Below are positions 6,651 to 32,151 of a DNA stretch of 32,151 bases, piece by piece; position 1 is the first letter of the stretch; the number at the start of each line of letters is the position of its first letter. Position numbers and translations under genes: made by a program. Below the pieces are notes generated by a model, which was not told the DNA's origin, made no database searches, and was given only the letters and a program-made list of their open reading frames with translations. Source of the DNA: Bacteroidota bacterium (lineage in GTDB: Bacteria; Bacteroidota; Bacteroidia; Flavobacteriales_D; Crocinitomicaceae); the NCBI GenBank assembly GCA_947378245.1, contig CANCJF010000009.1:1-32151 (forward strand), read 5' to 3'.

Positions 6651-8012
6651 TTAGCGAGCAATCCAGCTGCTAGGGTTCATTCGATTTATTTGACCATTTG
6701 CTACTTGGTGAATTTCGAAATGAGCAATAGAAAGTGATTCTTCATCAATCGATAAAAGTGACCCTATTGCTTGTTTAGTTTTCACTTTAGTACCTACACT
6801 TACATAAACTTCTTGAAGATTAGAATAAACTGTTCTATAATTTCCATGTTTGATTATTACAATTTTTCCTGCACCCGGTATTGATAAAACACTTGTAACT
6901 TCTCCATCAAATACAGCTCTTACGTTTGCATTTCGGTGAGTACTTATGTCAATACCATTATTATTGGTGTATATATCTTTCAATTTTGCATGTGCTTGTC
7001 TACCATATCCTTCAGTGATTGTTCCACGTTCAACAGGCCATGGTAATCTACCACGGTTAGTTTCAAAACTTTGATTTAATTCAACTTCTTTTGTTTCATT
7101 GATTGTAATTATACGTTTTGGAGATTCAGCAGTTGTGTTTGTTTTTGAGGAATTTGTTTTATCGTTATTTGTTGAAGTTTTTGTCGATAAAGGAGTATTT
7201 GTAGACGTATTTGTTGTTGCCGATGAATTAGTATTTTTAATATTATTTTTGCGTTCATTCGCTTTTTTTCGTGCTTCTTCAGCTACTAATTCCGCACTAA
7301 TTGCTTCTTTAATTCGTTGTTTTAATATAATTTTTTTGTTTTCGATCAATTTCATTTCAGCAGTTAATTTATTTTCTGCTTTTTTAAGTTTATCGTAATT
7401 TTTTTCTTGTTCTTTTTTATCCACCAATAAATCTTCTTTTTCTAATTTCTTTTGTTCAGCAATAATTATTTTACTTTGTTTTTCTTTTTCTAAGGAAGTT
7501 TTTTCATTCGAAATAAGTCTCTGATGTTGAAGTATAACTTGCTTTTGTTTACGTTGTAGCTCTGCAATTTTGATTAGATATTTTTTTCTTTTAATTGCTT
7601 CATTGTAGTTGTCAGCAGCAAAAACATACATCCATTGTCCTTCTTTGCTTCGGTGTTTATAAGCATAGAATAAAAGTTCTTTATACTGATAGATTAAATG
7701 TTGTAGCTTATCTTCTAATTCTATAATTTGTTGTGATTTTTGATCAATTTTTAGTTCAGTACTTTTAATTTGACTATCAAAGTTTTTTAACAATTCTTCT
7801 CGGTATTTAACTTGATTTTCAAGTACTCGAAGCTCGCTTAATGTTGCTTCTGTACTTGATTTTGCTTTTTTGAGTAACCCTTTTGTTACTGAAATACTTT
7901 TTTCTAAACGTTCTTGTTCCTTGCGTAATTTTTCGCTATTTTTTTGAGTAAATCCAACGATTGGAAATCCTACAACACATGAAAGTAAAAGTAATTTAAT
8001 TGCAATGTTCAT
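6651..8012 (-). CDS. EnvC-like murein hydrolase activator with degenerate LytM (M23) domain
   Basis: A 453-residue exported protein. A signal peptide (about 1-22) precedes a long coiled coil (about 25-250, rich in K, E, Q and L), an Asn/Thr/Ser-rich linker (about 255-300) and a C-terminal LytM/M23 fold (about 321-453). The zinc ligands look lost: N351 replaces His in HxxxD (NNGID), N398 lies where YxHL is expected (VYSNL), and I429 replaces the first His of HxH (IAHFEI). This is the EnvC pattern: an inactive LytM factor that activates cell-wall amidases at division. It overlaps the DUF4292 gene by 17 bases, supporting linked expression with that gene and the TPR lipoprotein. The amidase partner is not in the window. 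Confidence 0.88.
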   Translation of the reverse strand: MNIAIKLLLLSCVVGFPIVGFTQKNSEKLRKEQERLEKSISVTKGLLKKAKSSTEATLSELRVLENQVKYREELLKNFDSQIKSTELKIDQKSQQIIELEDKLQHLIYQYKELLFYAYKHRSKEGQWMYVFAADNYNEAIKRKKYLIKIAELQRKQKQVILQHQRLISNEKTSLEKEKQSKIIIAEQKKLEKEDLLVDKKEQEKNYDKLKKAENKLTAEMKLIENKKIILKQRIKEAISAELVAEEARKKANERKNNIKNTNSSATTNTSTNTPLSTKTSTNNDKTNSSKTNTTAESPKRIITINETKEVELNQSFETNRGRLPWPVERGTITEGYGRQAHAKLKDIYTNNNGIDISTHRNANVRAVFDGEVTSVLSIPGAGKIVIIKHGNYRTVYSNLQEVYVSVGTKVKTKQAIGSLLSIDEESLSIAHFEIHQVANGQINRMNPSSWIAR

Positions 8013-8811
8013 AATTTTCAGGAATCGTAAAATAAATTTCTTGTTCTTGATTTACTTCAATTTTCTCATAATTGAGCATAATAAGAATTATATTTTTTTT
8101 AATAGCTATTCTAATTTCTACCTCATCAGGTATCCAATAATTTTCAATATTTTTTTTTGATTTATAATTAACTGAAATGTATGTCGAATCTTTGTTGTTT
8201 TCAATTTCAATTTTTTTAATTCCTAATCTGTCATTTGTAAAATAATATTTAAGAATAAAATCGTCAAAATTTTTGCGTTCCATTTTCTTTATTTCTCTTT
8301 TACGATGAGAAGATACAATATATGAATAAGGATCATGAATTTGATAATATTTTTGTTGTGAATTATATCCAAGTGGGTGACCTAATAAAATTTCTTGTAA
8401 ATTTTTATAATCAAAATCTACTCCCAACTCTTGTCTTAAGATTTTCAATGTTGTTTTAACGAAGCAACGATCCTTTTTATTTGTAAATTGTAATGAATCC
8501 TTTGTAATTATAGAGTTTACAATAGGAATTCCAGCATAAGTTATCATAGCCGTTATAGCACTATCTTTAATCATTCTAACTGAAGTTTTAAATGATACTT
8601 CTTGATTGCTATCTTTATAAGAAGTAGAAATCTTCGTATATAATGTATTTGGTGTGATTTTCGATAAACTATCTAAAACCAACATTAATTCTGAAGTACG
8701 CTTACGTTCTACTTTAATTTGCGGAATTTCTCCAACTATTTTCTTTGCACAGGAGGGTAATGTTATACCTATACATACTATGATTTTTAATATGTTAAAA
8801 TACTGTTTCAT
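7996..8811 (-). CDS. DUF4292-family lipoprotein
   Basis: The frame is open from 8868, but the likely start is the ATG at 8811. From there the protein begins MKQYFNILKIIVCIGITLPSC, a lipoprotein signal with lipobox LPSC. The upstream extension is highly charged and would spoil the signal. The mature part (~250 residues) is mostly beta strands and resembles DUF4292 (LolA/LolB-like fold in Bacteroidota), with PNTLYTKISTSYKD near the start and a DSAITAMITYAGIPIVNSII stretch. It overlaps the TPR gene before it and the EnvC-like gene after it by 16-17 bases. A role in lipoprotein or surface-material handling in the periplasm is inference. Confidence 0.82.
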   Translation of the reverse strand: MKQYFNILKIIVCIGITLPSCAKKIVGEIPQIKVERKRTSELMLVLDSLSKITPNTLYTKISTSYKDSNQEVSFKTSVRMIKDSAITAMITYAGIPIVNSIITKDSLQFTNKKDRCFVKTTLKILRQELGVDFDYKNLQEILLGHPLGYNSQQKYYQIHDPYSYIVSSHRKREIKKMERKNFDDFILKYYFTNDRLGIKKIEIENNKDSTYISVNYKSKKNIENYWIPDEVEIRIAIKKNIILIMLNYEKIEVNQEQEIYFTIPENYEHCN

Positions 8812-10498
8812 AGTACTGTTTTTTCTCAATCTTTTTAGGTAGAATCGAATTTTTCGATCCTTTTTCAAGTGCCATTTTCCAATGTATTAGTGCTTCATTA
8901 ATATTTCCCATTTTAAATTGACAATCACCGATATGTTCTAAAATTAACGGCTCTTTTAATCCGTTTTTTTGAATGGATTGAAATATTGATAAAGCCTCGG
9001 AGTATTTTCCTTGTTGAAAAAGAATCCAACCATACGTATCTAAAAAATGATAATCATTTGGAGAGACAATCAATACCTCTTTTATCATTTTTTCAGCTTT
9101 TTCTAAATGCATTTTTTCGTTTGCCAAATAAAATGCATAATTATTTAAATTAAGTTGATTTGTTGGAGCTAAGTTAATGGCATTTTCATAAGACTCATTT
9201 GCTTCTTTGTGTTGTTTATTTTTAAAATGAGCTTGGCCTAATTGTGCATAAAATTCAGCCTTTAATTCTTGATTTTTACCCGTATATTCTTTCCCCATTT
9301 CTAATGCTGCAATAGCTTCTGTATATTTTTTCAATTGAATAGCACTTACACCTGCTAATAGATACAACTTACCTTTCGTTGGAAAAATCTCAATTGCTTT
9401 TTTACAATCTGAATACAGCTCATTATATTTTTGAAATTCATATTCCATAATAACCACTTCTTCCCAAATAGAATAATGTGTTGGATCTAACTCCACTGCA
9501 TGATGATAAGAGTCAAGCGCTAAAGTGTCAAAGCCATTTTTACTTTGAATATCACCTAAAAGGGTGAATACTTTTGCTTCTTTTGGATAATCAGTTGTTA
9601 ATTGTTGAGCTAACTCTGTAATTTGAGGGTCTAATTTCGCTTGTTTTTCAAAGAAATATGAAATAGATTTTGTTTTAGTTTCTAGTGAAATCTCTGAACA
9701 ACTAAATGCTAATTTTAATTCTTTATAGGTATTCAATTTATCGTCTCTTTCTAAATAATACTGTGCTAAAGTTAAATGCACATTACCATTTATCGGATCC
9801 GATTCAGCTAATCTAAAAAGTAATTTAATCGCGGCATCATCATTTTTAGTTTCAAAATAATAATCTATTAATTGTGCAAGTATTTCATTTTCAGAAGGAA
9901 ACTTTTCGATTGCTTTTATTAATATTTCTTCGGCTTCTTTATCTTCGTGTAAATACCTTTTGACTTTATATTTTTCTATATAAATTTCTGGAGTTTCACC
10001 AAGAACTGCTTGAAGTTGATTTAGTGATTGAAAAGCTTCTTTTAATTTATTAGACTTCAATAAACATTCCGAATAATTAATTAGCCATTCTGGATTTCTA
10101 GGGTTCTTTTTAAGTAATTTTTGATACGTGTTAGTAGCTTGTTTGTAATTATTTGTAGCCAAATACTTAATAGCCAAATCTTGAATATAATGGTCGTTTT
10201 CAGGATCTAATTCTGCTGCCTTTTCAAGAGCTCCTATTGATTTTTCTTTTTGATTAGTATACCCGTAAAGTTCTGATAACGCAAAATAAGCTGCATCATC
10301 TTTTTTATTTTGTGTAATACATGCTTCAAAAATTGAGATTGCATTTTCGTATTGTCTACGCTGCTTTGTCCTTACACCTTCATGAAATAACTCAATATAT
10401 TTTGGATAATAGGCAATTTCGGCGGTAGTATTCTTTTTACTTGTACCACAAGCGTATACGACCAAAACAATACAAGTAAAAAGTATAAAATGCTTCAT
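8795..10498 (-). CDS. TPR-repeat lipoprotein
   Basis: A 567-residue protein with a lipoprotein signal (hydrophobic 3-15, lipobox VYAC with C17, then GTSKK) followed by about a dozen tetratricopeptide repeats through residue ~550, such as AISIFEACITQNKKDDAAYF and ALDSYHHAVELDPTHYSIWE. It is probably attached to the periplasmic face of a membrane as a scaffold. Its start codon overlaps the stop codon of the preceding nucleotidyltransferase gene (TAATG), and its end overlaps the DUF4292 lipoprotein gene by 17 bases, so the three are translationally linked. The order nucleotidyltransferase, TPR, DUF4292, EnvC recurs in Flavobacteriia as far as I know. The binding partner is unknown. Confidence 0.9.
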   Translation of the reverse strand: MKHFILFTCIVLVVYACGTSKKNTTAEIAYYPKYIELFHEGVRTKQRRQYENAISIFEACITQNKKDDAAYFALSELYGYTNQKEKSIGALEKAAELDPENDHYIQDLAIKYLATNNYKQATNTYQKLLKKNPRNPEWLINYSECLLKSNKLKEAFQSLNQLQAVLGETPEIYIEKYKVKRYLHEDKEAEEILIKAIEKFPSENEILAQLIDYYFETKNDDAAIKLLFRLAESDPINGNVHLTLAQYYLERDDKLNTYKELKLAFSCSEISLETKTKSISYFFEKQAKLDPQITELAQQLTTDYPKEAKVFTLLGDIQSKNGFDTLALDSYHHAVELDPTHYSIWEEVVIMEYEFQKYNELYSDCKKAIEIFPTKGKLYLLAGVSAIQLKKYTEAIAALEMGKEYTGKNQELKAEFYAQLGQAHFKNKQHKEANESYENAINLAPTNQLNLNNYAFYLANEKMHLEKAEKMIKEVLIVSPNDYHFLDTYGWILFQQGKYSEALSIFQSIQKNGLKEPLILEHIGDCQFKMGNINEALIHWKMALEKGSKNSILPKKIEKKQYYETVF

Positions 10499-27183: not shown

Positions 27184-28890
27184 TTAATCCAAATGAACTC
27201 CTTGTTTTTTGAGCATGCGTTTTACGACGATTGCAAATACAGCAAGGTAGATAAAGCATAGGGATCCTACGACGAAGGATTGTTGAATACCAACTAAATC
27301 ACTTAATTTACCTTGTAGAGGAGGGATGATTGCGCCACCTAAAATCATCATGATTAAAAATGCAGAACCTTGTGATTGGTATTTTCCTAGTCCACCAAGG
27401 GATAAAGAGAAAATGCAGGGCCACATAATGGAGCAGAAAAGTCCGACACTAAGAAATGCGTAAATAGCGATTTCACCCGTTGTAGATAGGCCAATTAAAG
27501 TTGCTATTACTCCAAGTAAGCTAAAAATTAACAGTGTTTTTGCAGGTTTATTTTTACCAAGATAAAACCCTCCAATTTGTATGAACACACAAACAACGTA
27601 GAAATATAAATTTGACACATCGTGTCCAGCAAGATGCGTTAACCCTAAAACCACTCCAAACGCTATCAAAGGAATTAATGTGGTTAGTATGTTTTTAGTT
27701 TTGTCTTTCAGGTCGAAGGCGTGTATTGCACTTGCCCAACGTCCGATCATTAAACTTCCCCAGTAGAGGGCGATGAAAGGTGCAATGTTGGAAGAACTAT
27801 ACCCGCCAAACTCTTTTTGTTTTAATAATTCACCAAGATTACTACCAACTGCGACTTCTACACCAACATAAATAAATATGGCAAGCATACCAAGAATTAG
27901 TTGTGGGTATTGCATGGCCCCCCAACCTTCGCTATTTTTTTTAGCACTTCTTAAGGAAAGTAATAATCCTCCTACAATTACCACTAATCCAAGGGATAGC
28001 CACAACATTCGTTCATTTTCTAGCGGAACCTTTAGATCTAAAATTTCTTGTTCTAATACTTCAATCACTTTCGTGTTTGATACCAAGCTTTCTTCTGCTT
28101 TGATCAATTTAGTTTTACTTATGATTTCTTGTGCTTCCTGACTTCGATAGCTATTAAATACAGGTGCAAAACACATCACAAGTAATCCAGTAATAATTAA
28201 TAAGGAACGTAAGGCTTTTTTAGAATTCTCTGTTTTTTCTTCATTTATTCCAGAAGGTAATTTTTTTGATAGAGCGAAAAGCGAAGCAATACCAACAAAC
28301 AGTAAGCCAACACAGATATATAAAACGATCACTTTATTGAGGCTGAGGTGTTGAATTTGTTCGTCATTCACTGCTGCACTACCGAATAATGCGAGTGCTA
28401 CAACCAGAGGGCCGATGGTTGTGCCTAAACTATTGATTCCTCCTCCTAAACTGATTCGATTAGAGCCGGTTGATTCATCTCCCAAGGAAATCATAAATGG
28501 ATTCGCGGATGTCTGTTGAAGTGAAAAACCGAGTGCTACAATAAATAAACCAAACAACATACCCGTAAACACGTCAAAATATACGGAAACAATCATAGCA
28601 CCAGCACCTAGGGCAGAAAAAAGTAATCCATAAATGATGCTTTTTTTGTAGCCCCATTTTCCAACCGGATCAACCCCTTTATTGGATCCGATTGCAAATA
28701 AGGTTAACGCTCCAATATAGTAGGCGAAGTAAAATGCAAAATCGATTAATTGACTTTGAAATTGATCTAGTTTGAAATAATGTTTACAGAAAGGAATAAA
28801 GATACTGTTACCAGCAGCAATGAACCCCCAGAAAAAAAATACAGTGATTAAGGTAAATAGGGCGCTATAATTTGTTTTAACTTGAGTCAT
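27184..28890 (-). CDS. FucP-like MFS sugar transporter with extra two-helix insert
   Basis: A 568-residue major facilitator protein, much longer than the ~430 residues usual for the FucP sugar:H+ symporter family. N-half motifs typical of the family are FFFWGFIAAGNSIFIPFCK, QLIDFAFYFAYYIGAL and GFSLQQTSANPFMISLG; the C-half begins YPQLILGMLAIFIYVGVEVAVGSNL. Between them (about 229-313) are two added membrane helices flanking a charged helical segment (248-294). It should import a sugar with protons, although no sugar catabolic genes are adjacent. A -7 box (TACTTTTG, complement of 28908-28915) lies upstream. The substrate is unknown. Confidence 0.9.
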   Translation of the reverse strand: MTQVKTNYSALFTLITVFFFWGFIAAGNSIFIPFCKHYFKLDQFQSQLIDFAFYFAYYIGALTLFAIGSNKGVDPVGKWGYKKSIIYGLLFSALGAGAMIVSVYFDVFTGMLFGLFIVALGFSLQQTSANPFMISLGDESTGSNRISLGGGINSLGTTIGPLVVALALFGSAAVNDEQIQHLSLNKVIVLYICVGLLFVGIASLFALSKKLPSGINEEKTENSKKALRSLLIITGLLVMCFAPVFNSYRSQEAQEIISKTKLIKAEESLVSNTKVIEVLEQEILDLKVPLENERMLWLSLGLVVIVGGLLLSLRSAKKNSEGWGAMQYPQLILGMLAIFIYVGVEVAVGSNLGELLKQKEFGGYSSSNIAPFIALYWGSLMIGRWASAIHAFDLKDKTKNILTTLIPLIAFGVVLGLTHLAGHDVSNLYFYVVCVFIQIGGFYLGKNKPAKTLLIFSLLGVIATLIGLSTTGEIAIYAFLSVGLFCSIMWPCIFSLSLGGLGKYQSQGSAFLIMMILGGAIIPPLQGKLSDLVGIQQSFVVGSLCFIYLAVFAIVVKRMLKKQGVHLD

Positions 28891-28907
28891 AAAATGATAT
28901 TTTTTTT

Positions 28908-28915
28908 CAAAAGTA
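28908..28915 (-). promoter_or_regulatory. -7 box of the sugar transporter gene
   Basis: On the minus strand TACTTTTG matches TAnnTTTG, 18 bases ahead of the ATG at 28890. No convincing -33 TTG was found at the usual spacing. Confidence 0.45.
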
Positions 28916-29043
28916 GAAGAATAATAACTAGTTAAGAAGAAGAGTAGAAATAATTTATACTAACTGAAATGTTGATAGATTGAATTTGGAATTTATTTCA
29001 ATTTATTTGATATGATTTATCATAAAATTTCGTTTCTTGTAGT

Positions 29044-29517
29044 ATGAAAAATTTGTTTGTTACAATTTTAGTAGTTTGTTTACATTCTATTAGTTATTCT
29101 CAAATCTTTGAAAAAATCACCTTTCAAACTTCCTATTGCTTTGGAACCTGTCCGGTATATCACCTTGAACTAAACTCTGACAAAACCTTTAAACTACATG
29201 TAGAAACTGTCTTTTTGGAAAACAGTCAAATGCGTGCATTAGATTCTTCCAAAATGGGATATTTTTCAGGGAAATTAGATCAAAAAACCTACGATAAATT
29301 TATCGCTGCTTTTCAACAAAGTGACATGTGTAACCTTACTTTTGATGGGATTACATGCTGTGACGGCTCTTTGATTACAATGGTTGTCAATTACGATGGA
29401 ATTCAAAAAGAACTAGTTTCGATGTTTCCTCCCTATGAAGCACAGCCATTAATTCAAGTTTTATACGAGATATGTCGAACTACAAAAATGAAGCGAGTAA
29501 ATTCAACTGATAGATGA
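29044..29517 (+). CDS. DUF6438-type exported protein
   Basis: A 157-residue exported protein. A signal peptide (1-20, ending ISYSQ) is followed by FEKITFQTSYCFGTCPVYHL; the CFGTCPVY motif (C32, C36) is the mark of DUF6438, a domain of unknown function widespread in Bacteroidota. Later cysteines (TCCDGS) may pair with these in the periplasm. Its stop overlaps the start of the next gene by 4 bases (ATGA), giving translational coupling with the polysaccharide-lyase-like gene. No enzyme function can be claimed. Confidence 0.8.
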   Translation: MKNLFVTILVVCLHSISYSQIFEKITFQTSYCFGTCPVYHLELNSDKTFKLHVETVFLENSQMRALDSSKMGYFSGKLDQKTYDKFIAAFQQSDMCNLTFDGITCCDGSLITMVVNYDGIQKELVSMFPPYEAQPLIQVLYEICRTTKMKRVNSTDR

Positions 29518-30320
29518 AAACTACTTTAAAATTTTTACTATTTGGAATAGGAATAGCCTTGTTTTCCTGTGGAAAAGTGCCTACTTCAGTGCCAAATCAA
29601 CCGATAAGCTATTTCGTTGGTGATTTTGAAAATGGAACTGTTTCTGGATTTCATTACCTGCTTGTTGATACAACTAACAACACTCAAATAGTTACCAATC
29701 CTGTTCGTAAAGGAAAATACGCACTTAAAAATATTCTACATCCGGATGATTTTACAAGCAATGGATACAGAACAGAATTGGCGATCTACAACAGTGCAAA
29801 TTTCAAATCAGAAGCTTATTACAGTTTCAGCTTTTGGGTAGATTCCAACTACCTCGATACTGCTTACAATTTAGTTTGTCAATGGCAAGATTTACCTTAT
29901 TATTTACAAGGGGAAGATTGGACACCAAGTCCTACTTTACATGGATCACCCCCACCAATTTCGTTGACTTATGTAAATAATACCATCGAATTAAAAATGA
30001 ATGATAACCCTTCTTTTTCTAACCAAACGTTCTTGGTTGGGGAACCTTTAAAAATCAAAAAAGGCAAGTGGTATGACGTGGTTGCACACATATATTGGAA
30101 CGATGACAAAACCGCATATCAAGAAATTTCGATCAATGGAAAATTCATCACGCCCTTTAATGGTGTGGACTATAAATATTATCATCGTAACCTTTTCAAC
30201 CGTGCAGGAAACTATTTCAAGTTCGGACAATACCGTGGAAAAAACAAATCTGAACACACCAACATTATCTATTTCGATGAGGTAAAAATTGGATCCACCT
30301 TAAATGAAGTTGCGCTATGA
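29514..30320 (+). CDS. Polysaccharide-lyase-like lipoprotein (heparin lyase I-type fold)
   Basis: A 268-residue lipoprotein (lipobox LFSC with C19). The mature part resembles the Polysacc_lyase family (PL20/heparin-lyase-I-like jelly roll): GDFENGTVSGFH, NPVRKGKYALKNIL, SNGYRTELAIYNS, YYSFSFWVDSNY, LVCQWQDLPYY, KKGKWYDVVAHIYWN and a final IYFDEVKIG. Such proteins cut acidic polysaccharides by beta-elimination or bind them. Catalytic residues cannot be assigned with certainty. It overlaps both neighbours by 4 bases (ATGA on each side) in a three-gene unit with a DUF6438 protein and a predicted barrel. No SusC/SusD pair is present. Confidence 0.8.
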   Translation: MKTTLKFLLFGIGIALFSCGKVPTSVPNQPISYFVGDFENGTVSGFHYLLVDTTNNTQIVTNPVRKGKYALKNILHPDDFTSNGYRTELAIYNSANFKSEAYYSFSFWVDSNYLDTAYNLVCQWQDLPYYLQGEDWTPSPTLHGSPPPISLTYVNNTIELKMNDNPSFSNQTFLVGEPLKIKKGKWYDVVAHIYWNDDKTAYQEISINGKFITPFNGVDYKYYHRNLFNRAGNYFKFGQYRGKNKSEHTNIIYFDEVKIGSTLNEVAL

Positions 30321-30919
30321 GACAACTATTTTTCCTTTGCTTACTTTTAAGCAACTTTATTCACTCTCAAGAAAGTAGTTCTTTAAATAAAAGCAGTTTT
30401 TCCGTTGACTTTGGAAGTTTAGGTAATCGTTATATATACCCAAAAACGGATATCAACTTTTCCACTTCCTTGATTAAATCGAGTGCATTTCGTGTGTCAG
30501 CGCGACTTCGATCTTATGGCACCTTGTATTTTTTCTCTAAAACTGCCTACGATTTTACTCCCCTCATGGAATACTATTTCACCAAAACAGAACAACTCTT
30601 GTATTTTTCTGCTGGAATTGGTTTGGATGCACGGATTCGTTTAGTACATGACAGTAGAAGTTCTGCATCCTCATCGGTAGAACCACTATTGAGTTTAGCA
30701 TTACATGGGAATTATAAAAAAGTTTCGTACTCCGTACCGCTTTGGACCCGTTGGTATACAAATGGTATGTCTTATGCTATCTTACCTCAAATCAATTGGG
30801 AATTAAACAACAACGCGCTATTTATACGTTACGAACTGAACTATCTACGAATTTCCAAAAATGTTTCAAGTGAATGGAGTCAGGATCTATTTTTAGGGCT
30901 TAGGAGATCTCTAAATTAA
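30317..30919 (+). CDS. Predicted outer-membrane beta-strand protein, unknown family
   Basis: A 200-residue protein with a signal peptide (1-17, ending FIHSQ). The rest has alternating polar/aromatic strands (for example INFSTSLIKSSAFRVSARLR and LLYFSAGIGLDARIRLVHD) and ends RRSLN, consistent with a small beta-barrel of roughly eight strands. No family is recognised. It starts in the ATGA overlap with the lyase-like gene, so it is co-expressed with it. Outer-membrane location and a link to polysaccharide handling are inferences. Confidence 0.7.
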   Translation: MRQLFFLCLLLSNFIHSQESSSLNKSSFSVDFGSLGNRYIYPKTDINFSTSLIKSSAFRVSARLRSYGTLYFFSKTAYDFTPLMEYYFTKTEQLLYFSAGIGLDARIRLVHDSRSSASSSVEPLLSLALHGNYKKVSYSVPLWTRWYTNGMSYAILPQINWELNNNALFIRYELNYLRISKNVSSEWSQDLFLGLRRSLN

Positions 30920-31017
30920 TACCAACTCTTCTCTTCGTCGCTCTTCTTTTCATCACCCGTCACTATCTCTCCTACACTCGACCCCGTGCCCTGAAATTTT
31001 CGAAGGGCCGTCACTCC

Positions 31018-31055
31018 AAAATAGTCATTTATAGCTATTTTATGAACTATTTTTT
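31018..31055 (+). terminator. Possible AT-rich terminator after the lyase-barrel operon
   Basis: AAAATAGT (31018-31025) pairs with ACTATTTT (31046-31053), extended by CAT/ATG inside, and the right arm runs into a T-run. The stem is AT-rich with a wide loop. A GC-richer hairpin (GCCCT 30988-30992, AGGGC 31004-31008) lies upstream without a T-run. Together they could end the upstream operon; evidence is weak. Confidence 0.3.
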
Positions 31056-31090
31056 ATTCGTAATTTTACGCAAAATTTTTATACGTCATC

Positions 31091-32151
31091 ATGAAGACAA
31101 CCTATTTCAAACTGATTTTAGCTACACTATCGCTTTTACTTAGTGTACACACCTACGCCAACACTTTGTATTGGATTGGGGGCACTGGAGATTATAACGA
31201 CCCTACACATTGGTCTACCACTTCAGGAGGGAGTGCTTGTGGTTGTATTCCAACACTTAATGACGATGTGTTTTTTGATGCAAACTCGTTTTCTGACAAA
31301 GGACAGGTCGTAACGCTTTCAAGTATTTCGAAAGCCAATGCGATGGATTGGACTGCGGTTACAAACATGCCTACCTTGGCGGGAGACTATAATGCAAATT
31401 CCAGTTTTTACGCAAACCAAATCTACTATACTGAGTTGCACATCGGTGGAGACTTGCGCTTATCGCCAAACATGAAGTTTGATTTTGCAGGTTCTATGAC
31501 CTTTGTGAATGATGAAGTAGGAACGAAAATTACGTTAGCAGGACAAGTATTGAAATGTTCGGTTATGTTTAATCATGAAATGGGAGAATGGGTTTTTCAA
31601 GATACTTTTCAATCTGAAAAAGGGATTATTTTAAACAGTGGAACTATAAATACCAATGGTAAAGATGTTAAAATTTACAATTTTTATGCATCTAATAACA
31701 ACTTAAGAGCTTTGGTGATGACCAATTCGTTGTTTGAAATAGCAGCATCAGGTTATGGTGCAATCAGTACACATTTTTATTCACAAGGTGGTTTTGGACT
31801 ATATGGCTCTTGGTATGTTTCTTCCACCAATTTTAACTTGAATGCACAAAATTCAAGATTAAAATTTCTTGCAAATGTTGCATCGGGGACAGATTTTGGA
31901 TCTAACCTTAATTATGGCACCATTCAGTTTAACAGTGTTGGAGCAATCAAAGATGCGAACATACAAAAATTAATCGCGAATGATGGAGTAACTTTTAATG
32001 GAAATTGCAAAATCATTTCCGCGACGATTAAAGGAGACGGTAATTTTGCAGACAATAATACGATCGATAGTTTGTATTTAACAGCAGGACGTGTTTATAC
32101 ATTTGGTCAGTCGAATGGAATTACCACCATCCAAAAATACCTAAAAGCGGT
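31091..32151 (+). CDS. Large secreted surface protein, N-terminal part (right end cut by window)
   Basis: The frame is open from the ATG at 31091 to the right edge (353 codons visible, no stop). A signal peptide (1-~24, MKTTYFKLILATLSLLLSVH then TYA) precedes NTLYWIGGTGDYNDPTHWST, SACGCIPTLNDDVFFDANSF and repeated beta-strand-rich stretches. The YWIGG...W and P..NDDVFFD pattern is common at the start of very large Bacteroidota adhesin-like proteins exported by T9SS. A beta-helix or beta-solenoid is likely; the sorting tail, if present, would be outside the window. It stands 171 bases after the barrel gene. Adhesion or matrix role is inference. Confidence 0.85.
   Translation, partial: MKTTYFKLILATLSLLLSVHTYANTLYWIGGTGDYNDPTHWSTTSGGSACGCIPTLNDDVFFDANSFSDKGQVVTLSSISKANAMDWTAVTNMPTLAGDYNANSSFYANQIYYTELHIGGDLRLSPNMKFDFAGSMTFVNDEVGTKITLAGQVLKCSVMFNHEMGEWVFQDTFQSEKGIILNSGTINTNGKDVKIYNFYASNNNLRALVMTNSLFEIAASGYGAISTHFYSQGGFGLYGSWYVSSTNFNLNAQNSRLKFLANVASGTDFGSNLNYGTIQFNSVGAIKDANIQKLIANDGVTFNGNCKIISATIKGDGNFADNNTIDSLYLTAGRVYTFGQSNGITTIQKYLKA

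Follow-up and report, generated by a model that had tools for sequence, protein, structure and literature searches.

Introduction

Bacteroidota import glycans through dedicated pairs made up of a lipoprotein and an outer-membrane barrel. To our knowledge, the dedicated pairs described so far use large barrels, SusC being far larger than the barrel considered below. Small barrels with arginines in the lumen are exemplified by KdgM and NanC, which have 12 strands and whose partner enzymes act on acidic sugars.

The catalytic residues of the Trichoderma reesei glucuronan lyase A (TrGL, family PL20) are given as Arg51, His53, Glu55, Gln91, Tyr200 and Asp206 in a paper on TrGL fusions (PMC7601620). 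A review (PMC8618178) lists RXEXR, YXKAGXYXQ and QXH as the motifs of PL7 and describes a single tyrosine serving as both base and acid in PL5, PL14 and PL18. As for lipoproteins at the cell surface, the signal for their export in Bacteroidota is defined in PMC5080379, and RcsF reaches the surface threaded through outer-membrane proteins (OMPs) according to PMC4942254.

Here we describe a small-barrel form of the known lipoprotein-barrel pairs, carried by some uncultured Bacteroidota, whose barrel has no described Pfam family. The pair resembles SusC/SusD and RcsF/OMP in joining a lipoprotein to a dedicated or partner outer-membrane barrel, the complex being here a proposal only, and differs from them in that no sequence relation to its lipoprotein or barrel was seen. 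A limited literature search for a described pair of a lyase lipoprotein and a barrel found nothing relevant; for the lyase family (PF14099) the search turned up a fungal secretome paper, and no paper was found for DUF6438.

Results

Organization of the locus

The locus lies near the end of the window, by which we mean the whole stretch of 32,151 nucleotides that was analyzed (contig C9 of the source assembly). The relevant features are the following.

27184..28890, minus strand: divergent MFS sugar transporter (PF07690), a neighbour outside the unit
29044..29517, plus strand: DUF6438 (PF20033) secreted protein, 157 aa, Pfam E 1.4e-11; an optional, genus-level upstream passenger
29514..29517, plus strand: ATGA overlap between the DUF6438 stop and the lyase start, not kept in relatives
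29514..30320, plus strand: PF14099 glucuronan-lyase-like jelly-roll outer-membrane lipoprotein, 268 aa, Pfam E 4e-29, lipobox Cys19
30317..30320, plus strand: ATGA overlap between the lyase stop and the barrel start, ATGA or GTGA in 16/16 loci
30317..30919, plus strand: small outer-membrane barrel, 200 aa, 10 predicted strands, interior charged and conserved, no Pfam family

The sequence bears out the initial annotation as to the three genes and the ATGA at both junctions. That annotation had also taken the overlaps to mean that the three exported proteins are made in equal amounts, which ATGA overlaps do not imply. Comparison of the window with locus L036 returned dN/dS values of 0.12 for the DUF6438 gene, 0.14 for the lipoprotein gene and 0.19 for the barrel gene, and all three are therefore under purifying selection. 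The divergent gene at 27184-28890 had rightly been described as a sugar transporter: it matches PF07690 and the NCBIfam gluP model, the latter with an E of 2.8e-54 that is yet below the cut-off of that model. A link between transporter and pair was ruled out, the transporter being common only to the window and L036 among the 14 contig loci. At 31091-32149, a large secreted protein (start ...WIGGTGDYNDPTHWS...) with no Pfam match above cut-off runs off the contig end.

The lipoprotein and the barrel as the conserved unit

Genome contigs were scanned with the lipoprotein as query and 14 loci (L036-L049) were recovered, in all of which the barrel gene directly follows the lyase gene with a 4-base overlap (13 ATGA, 1 GTGA). 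Together with the window and G511 (L088) these make up 16 distinct loci across the class, and adjacency and overlap hold in every one of them (15 ATGA, 1 GTGA), while a 4-base overlap is possible at only 8 of the 146 other co-directional junctions of the window and L036-L049. The pairwise distances of lipoproteins and barrels over the 16 loci correlated with r = 0.90, a value to which shared ancestry contributes and which none of 10,000 permutations reached. The core unit is the lipoprotein-barrel pair (29514-30919), not the trio.

The gene-neighbourhood comparison proposed in the initial annotation showed the trio broken up. DUF6438 precedes the pair in 6 of the 16 loci and is absent from 9; at the remaining one, L048, the start of the contig leaves the upstream side unreadable. 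An ATGA at the first junction is confined to the window; L036 has a 1-base overlap there, and in L037-L040 the two genes abut. Of the suggested three-gene unit, the lyase-barrel coupling was thus upheld (16/16) and the membership of DUF6438 was not. One functional unit of DUF6438, lyase and barrel is highly improbable in spite of the co-occurrence of all three in 6 of the 7 carriers within the window's genus, as DUF6438 is missing at all nine other loci with readable upstream sequence and is found without the pair both in G007, a member of the same genus having neither lipoprotein nor barrel, and in more distant genomes. DUF6438 being separable from the pair, the trio was rejected as a unit.

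Outside the window's genus the surroundings of the pair differ, and inspection by eye of the proteins encoded around it there showed no flanking gene in common. In the order the barrel profile matched 8 of 399 genomes, G031 by a short and weak match, and in the class 7 of 295. G005 has a divergent homologue of the barrel (L062, 30% identity) with no lyase next to it. In G009 (C16:11051-11173) a fragment of a barrel copy with stops, which looks like a decayed duplicate, lies near an intact pair.

A glucuronan-lyase-like lipoprotein with a substituted histidine

The Pfam profile search bore out the assignment of the second gene as lyase-like, with 102.4 bits for PF14099 (Polysacc_lyase) against a cut-off of 29.9 (E 4e-29) over the full profile (1-210); no match to PF08787 was found. 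The lipobox ends in Cys19, invariant in 15/15 alignment rows, and this cysteine opens a conserved CGKVPT linker, in which each of the GKVPT positions is 81-100% conserved, with means of 0.68 for the linker and 0.75 for the domain. When the lipoprotein profile was compared with the PDB sequences, the sole match was TrGL (2zzj, E 1.6e-12). The same structure was the best match of the predicted fold (Z 16.5, rmsd 3.5, 191 residues; next 13.4), ahead of PL7 lyases, heparin lyase I and Aly36B at Z about 13. All structure predictions were of single chains and that of the lipoprotein is moderate, weak in places (mean pLDDT 69.9); the PL7 rows of the fold lists, like those of KdgM/NanC for the barrel, were taken as geometry and not as function.

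Arg86, Glu88, Gln123, Gln125, Lys236 and Tyr240 are invariant in the 16 paired lipoproteins. Arg86, Glu88, Lys236 and Tyr240 fall in PL7-type motifs, R86-T-E88 (RXE) and Y234-F-K-F-G-Q-Y240 (YXKXGXY), and the invariant RxE, Gln123 and KxGxY agree with the PL7 motifs of PMC8618178. The QxH motif reads QWQ in 16/16, so that Gln125 stands where the catalytic histidine would usually be. By comparison, QxH is kept in the four full-length unpaired PF14099 proteins that were read (one each in G056 and G530, two in G544), a set from which L060 (G018), judged a non-homologue, and the partial matches of G473 and G518 were left out. The initial annotation had held that a lack of all catalytic residues would weaken a joint role in degradation; the loss turned out to be partial, with Arg86, Gln123 and Tyr240 kept and the histidine gone. 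Three of the four PL7-like positions being kept, a lyase working by tyrosine only or a binding protein is left.

Aligned to TrGL, Glu88 corresponds to Glu55, Tyr240 to Tyr200 and, given a one-residue shift, Gln123 to Gln91, whereas His53 is replaced by Arg86, Arg51 by Gly84 and Asp206 has no clear equivalent, leaving three of the six catalytic residues without counterpart. The lipoprotein therefore shares with the PL20 enzyme its sequence family, its closest fold and these three residues, and differs from it in being bacterial and coupled to a barrel as well as in the three unmatched positions. The likeness to PL7 alginate lyases lies in RxE, YxKxGxY and the Gln of QxH at matching places; the difference lies in the glutamine that stands for the QxH histidine and in the missing PF08787 match.

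A predicted ten-stranded barrel with a conserved charged interior

The window's barrel matched no Pfam family, no credible family was found for the 15 barrels of alignment A2, and the sequence comparison with the PDB returned no matching chain (best E 0.86). AlphaFold2 placed 10 strands after the signal peptide, counting the pieces 150-155 and 158-163 as one strand, with a mean pLDDT of 76.9 and a pTM of 0.70 for the best of five models, two of which exceeded a mean pLDDT of 70; the barrel predicted in the initial annotation was thus recovered as a 10-stranded one. The alternation of residues fits a membrane barrel and agrees with this model. When the more polar face of each strand was taken as its inward side, the inward positions showed the stronger conservation, with a mean entropy of 0.95 against 1.52 on the outward side (p 0.0003).

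Seven arginines (63, 65, 106, 108, 114, 145 and 171) and seven acidic residues (D31, D79, D104, D112, E122, E173 and D190) are invariant, and this charged cluster is mostly inward-facing, with D112 and R114 in a loop. Assuming the usual periplasmic N-terminus, most of these residues would lie in the outer half of the modelled barrel. The best fold matches were OpcA (Z 15.5), OmpT-type proteases (12-14) and KdgM/NanC (about 10.8); kinship with OpcA or the OmpT-type proteases was rejected, the scores being read as shared strand number only. With KdgM/NanC the barrel has in common its small size and the arginines in the lumen, but it has 10 predicted strands, a balanced set of 7 Arg and 7 acidic residues and no sequence similarity to them.

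A second barrel-lipoprotein pair

Lipoproteins of another group, matching PF14099 weakly, directly follow a barrel of 155-173 aa in G000, G420, G477, G489 and G511, with ATGA at the junction in 5/5; G180 also has this second pair, with a 4-base overlap by coordinates. The gene order is opposite to that of the first pair, the barrel being upstream, and the RxE, QxH and KxGxY residues of the lipoproteins are lost. The window's own genome (G000) carries both pairs, the second on contig C36 (L089, G000:C36:10000-19985; locus 7990-9230, minus strand), where the lipoprotein is ATGA-coupled to an upstream 161-aa barrel; among 13 members of the window's genus its lipoprotein occurs in G000 only. In 149 class genomes, scores over 200 bits for the second barrel were confined to the five in which its lipoprotein is also present, and the remaining matches reached at most 105 bits.

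Homology of the two barrel families was unsupported (hhalign probability 35%); one barrel of G460 matched both profiles, the first weakly. The idea that second-type barrels generally precede lipoproteins was likewise unsupported, since a close downstream gene was present in 13 of 30 loci and several of these genes do not encode lipoproteins. A simple lipobox test on the 13 called 5, of which L107 is doubtful; L101, L102 and L104 at least escaped it, although their cysteine after the signal is visible by eye. At L104:1474-2812 and L106:687-2034 (G515 and G442) the gene for a relative of the second barrel overlaps the GDPD (PF03009) gene downstream of it, whose product is a lipoprotein by eye, a further coupling of a small barrel with a lipoprotein. 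At L097 (G483:C40:211951-212291) the second barrel and its lipoprotein persist as broken pieces that lie side by side.

Discussion

A lyase fold beside a barrel with an Arg-containing interior, for which KdgM and NanC are among the fold matches (Z about 10.8), calls to mind a minimal foraging device in which the lyase would cut external polyuronate and the barrel would import the oligouronates as KdgM/NanC do. This reading is improbable. The barrel has 10 predicted strands and not 12, the PF01081 aldolase is lacking in 11 of 14 carrier genomes and present in 3, one with an internal stop, against 8 of 14 controls, and 12 of the 14 carriers gave no GH88 match, only one of the other two matches being above cut-off; these counts cover 14 of the 16 carrier genomes, several of them incomplete, and PF01081 as sole aldolase type. 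The flanking genes that were scanned or read included no recognisable uronate-utilisation gene and, in agreement with the earlier description, the five genes scanned at 27184-32149 included no SusC/SusD. On account of the aldolase and GH88 results, the gene content suggests that the pair is unlikely to serve uronate feeding. Of the proposed minimal system for an acidic polysaccharide, the acidic polymer probably stands, and a feeding role is unlikely, the PF01081 aldolase and GH88 being mostly missing.

The known Bacteroidota surface signal (LES, at least two acidic residues at +2 to +6) is absent from all 16 lipoproteins, which may therefore face the periplasm or reach the surface via their barrel. 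The barrel could thus be dedicated to exporting or threading its lipoprotein to the surface, as OMPs do for RcsF, with sugar chemistry secondary. The conserved GKVPT linker after the cysteine would suit such a role, as would the missing export signal, the pairing of two barrels of unsupported relatedness each with PF14099 lipoproteins and the GDPD genes that follow second-barrel relatives in G515 and G442. However, conserved linkers have other causes, the charged lumen of a 10-stranded barrel may be too full for a peptide, and the downstream genes of the second-barrel relatives (close in 13/30, several not lipoproteins) fit it poorly; we regard the exporter role as quite unlikely. Somewhat doubtful, rather than remote, is a non-catalytic pair, in which a retired lyase would act as a lectin or as a polymer sensor or adhesin, with the barrel as its anchor. 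The replacement of the histidine may mean that catalysis is absent altogether: QWQ marks the paired proteins and QxH the unpaired ones, although the latter are four proteins only, and the second barrel-paired family lacks the Arg, Gln/His and Tyr altogether. Against it, Arg86, Glu88, Gln123, Lys236 and Tyr240 are invariant in 16/16, as expected under selection for catalysis.

As a plausible reading still short of even odds, we tentatively favour that lipoprotein and barrel form a dedicated complex whose role is to bind a uronic-acid polymer of the cell surface and perhaps to trim it slowly. Coupled translation on a shared message would yield the barrel along with the lipoprotein; the barrel would hold the jelly roll at the membrane and turn its own conserved Arg/Asp/Glu pocket to the outside. 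In the jelly roll, the cleft (Arg86, Glu88, Gln123, Lys236, Tyr240) would bind a glucuronate- or mannuronate-type polymer and might trim it slowly; with Gln125 in the place of the usual histidine, Tyr240 would then have to act as both base and acid. We infer the physical complex, the polymer identity, the surface location and the residual activity as follows: coupled translation, strict pairing and the second instance argue for the complex, what is kept of the cleft speaks for a uronic-acid polymer, the missing PF01081 aldolase points to a surface polymer and not to food, and the loss of the histidine suggests binding or slow cleavage by tyrosine only. Counting against this reading are the weak parts of the lipoprotein model, the missing export signal, the G005 barrel that stands without a lyase, the replaced histidine and the three TrGL catalytic residues that lack a counterpart.

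More broadly, it is possible, if rather doubtful at present, that Bacteroidota possess an outer-membrane device of an unrecognised kind, in which a jelly-roll lipoprotein derived from a polyuronate lyase has its own coupled small barrel, with at least two origins (different barrels, opposite gene order), and in which loss of the histidine together with gain of the barrel turned the lyase into a surface-polymer receptor or an export cargo. If so, the pair, together with the second one that this genome carries on the same fold, would offer a testable case of enzyme-to-receptor conversion and a possible route of export or anchoring for lipoproteins without the known export signal. A likely annotation error is also mended, as PF14099 beside a barrel does not imply polysaccharide feeding.

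Finally, a different setting for the family was observed in G544 (L091:7747-11194), where the two PF14099 proteins with QxH, the second bearing a malectin domain, lie beside genes that by eye resemble polysaccharide-synthesis genes; they are possibly processing enzymes of the polymer made by their neighbours.
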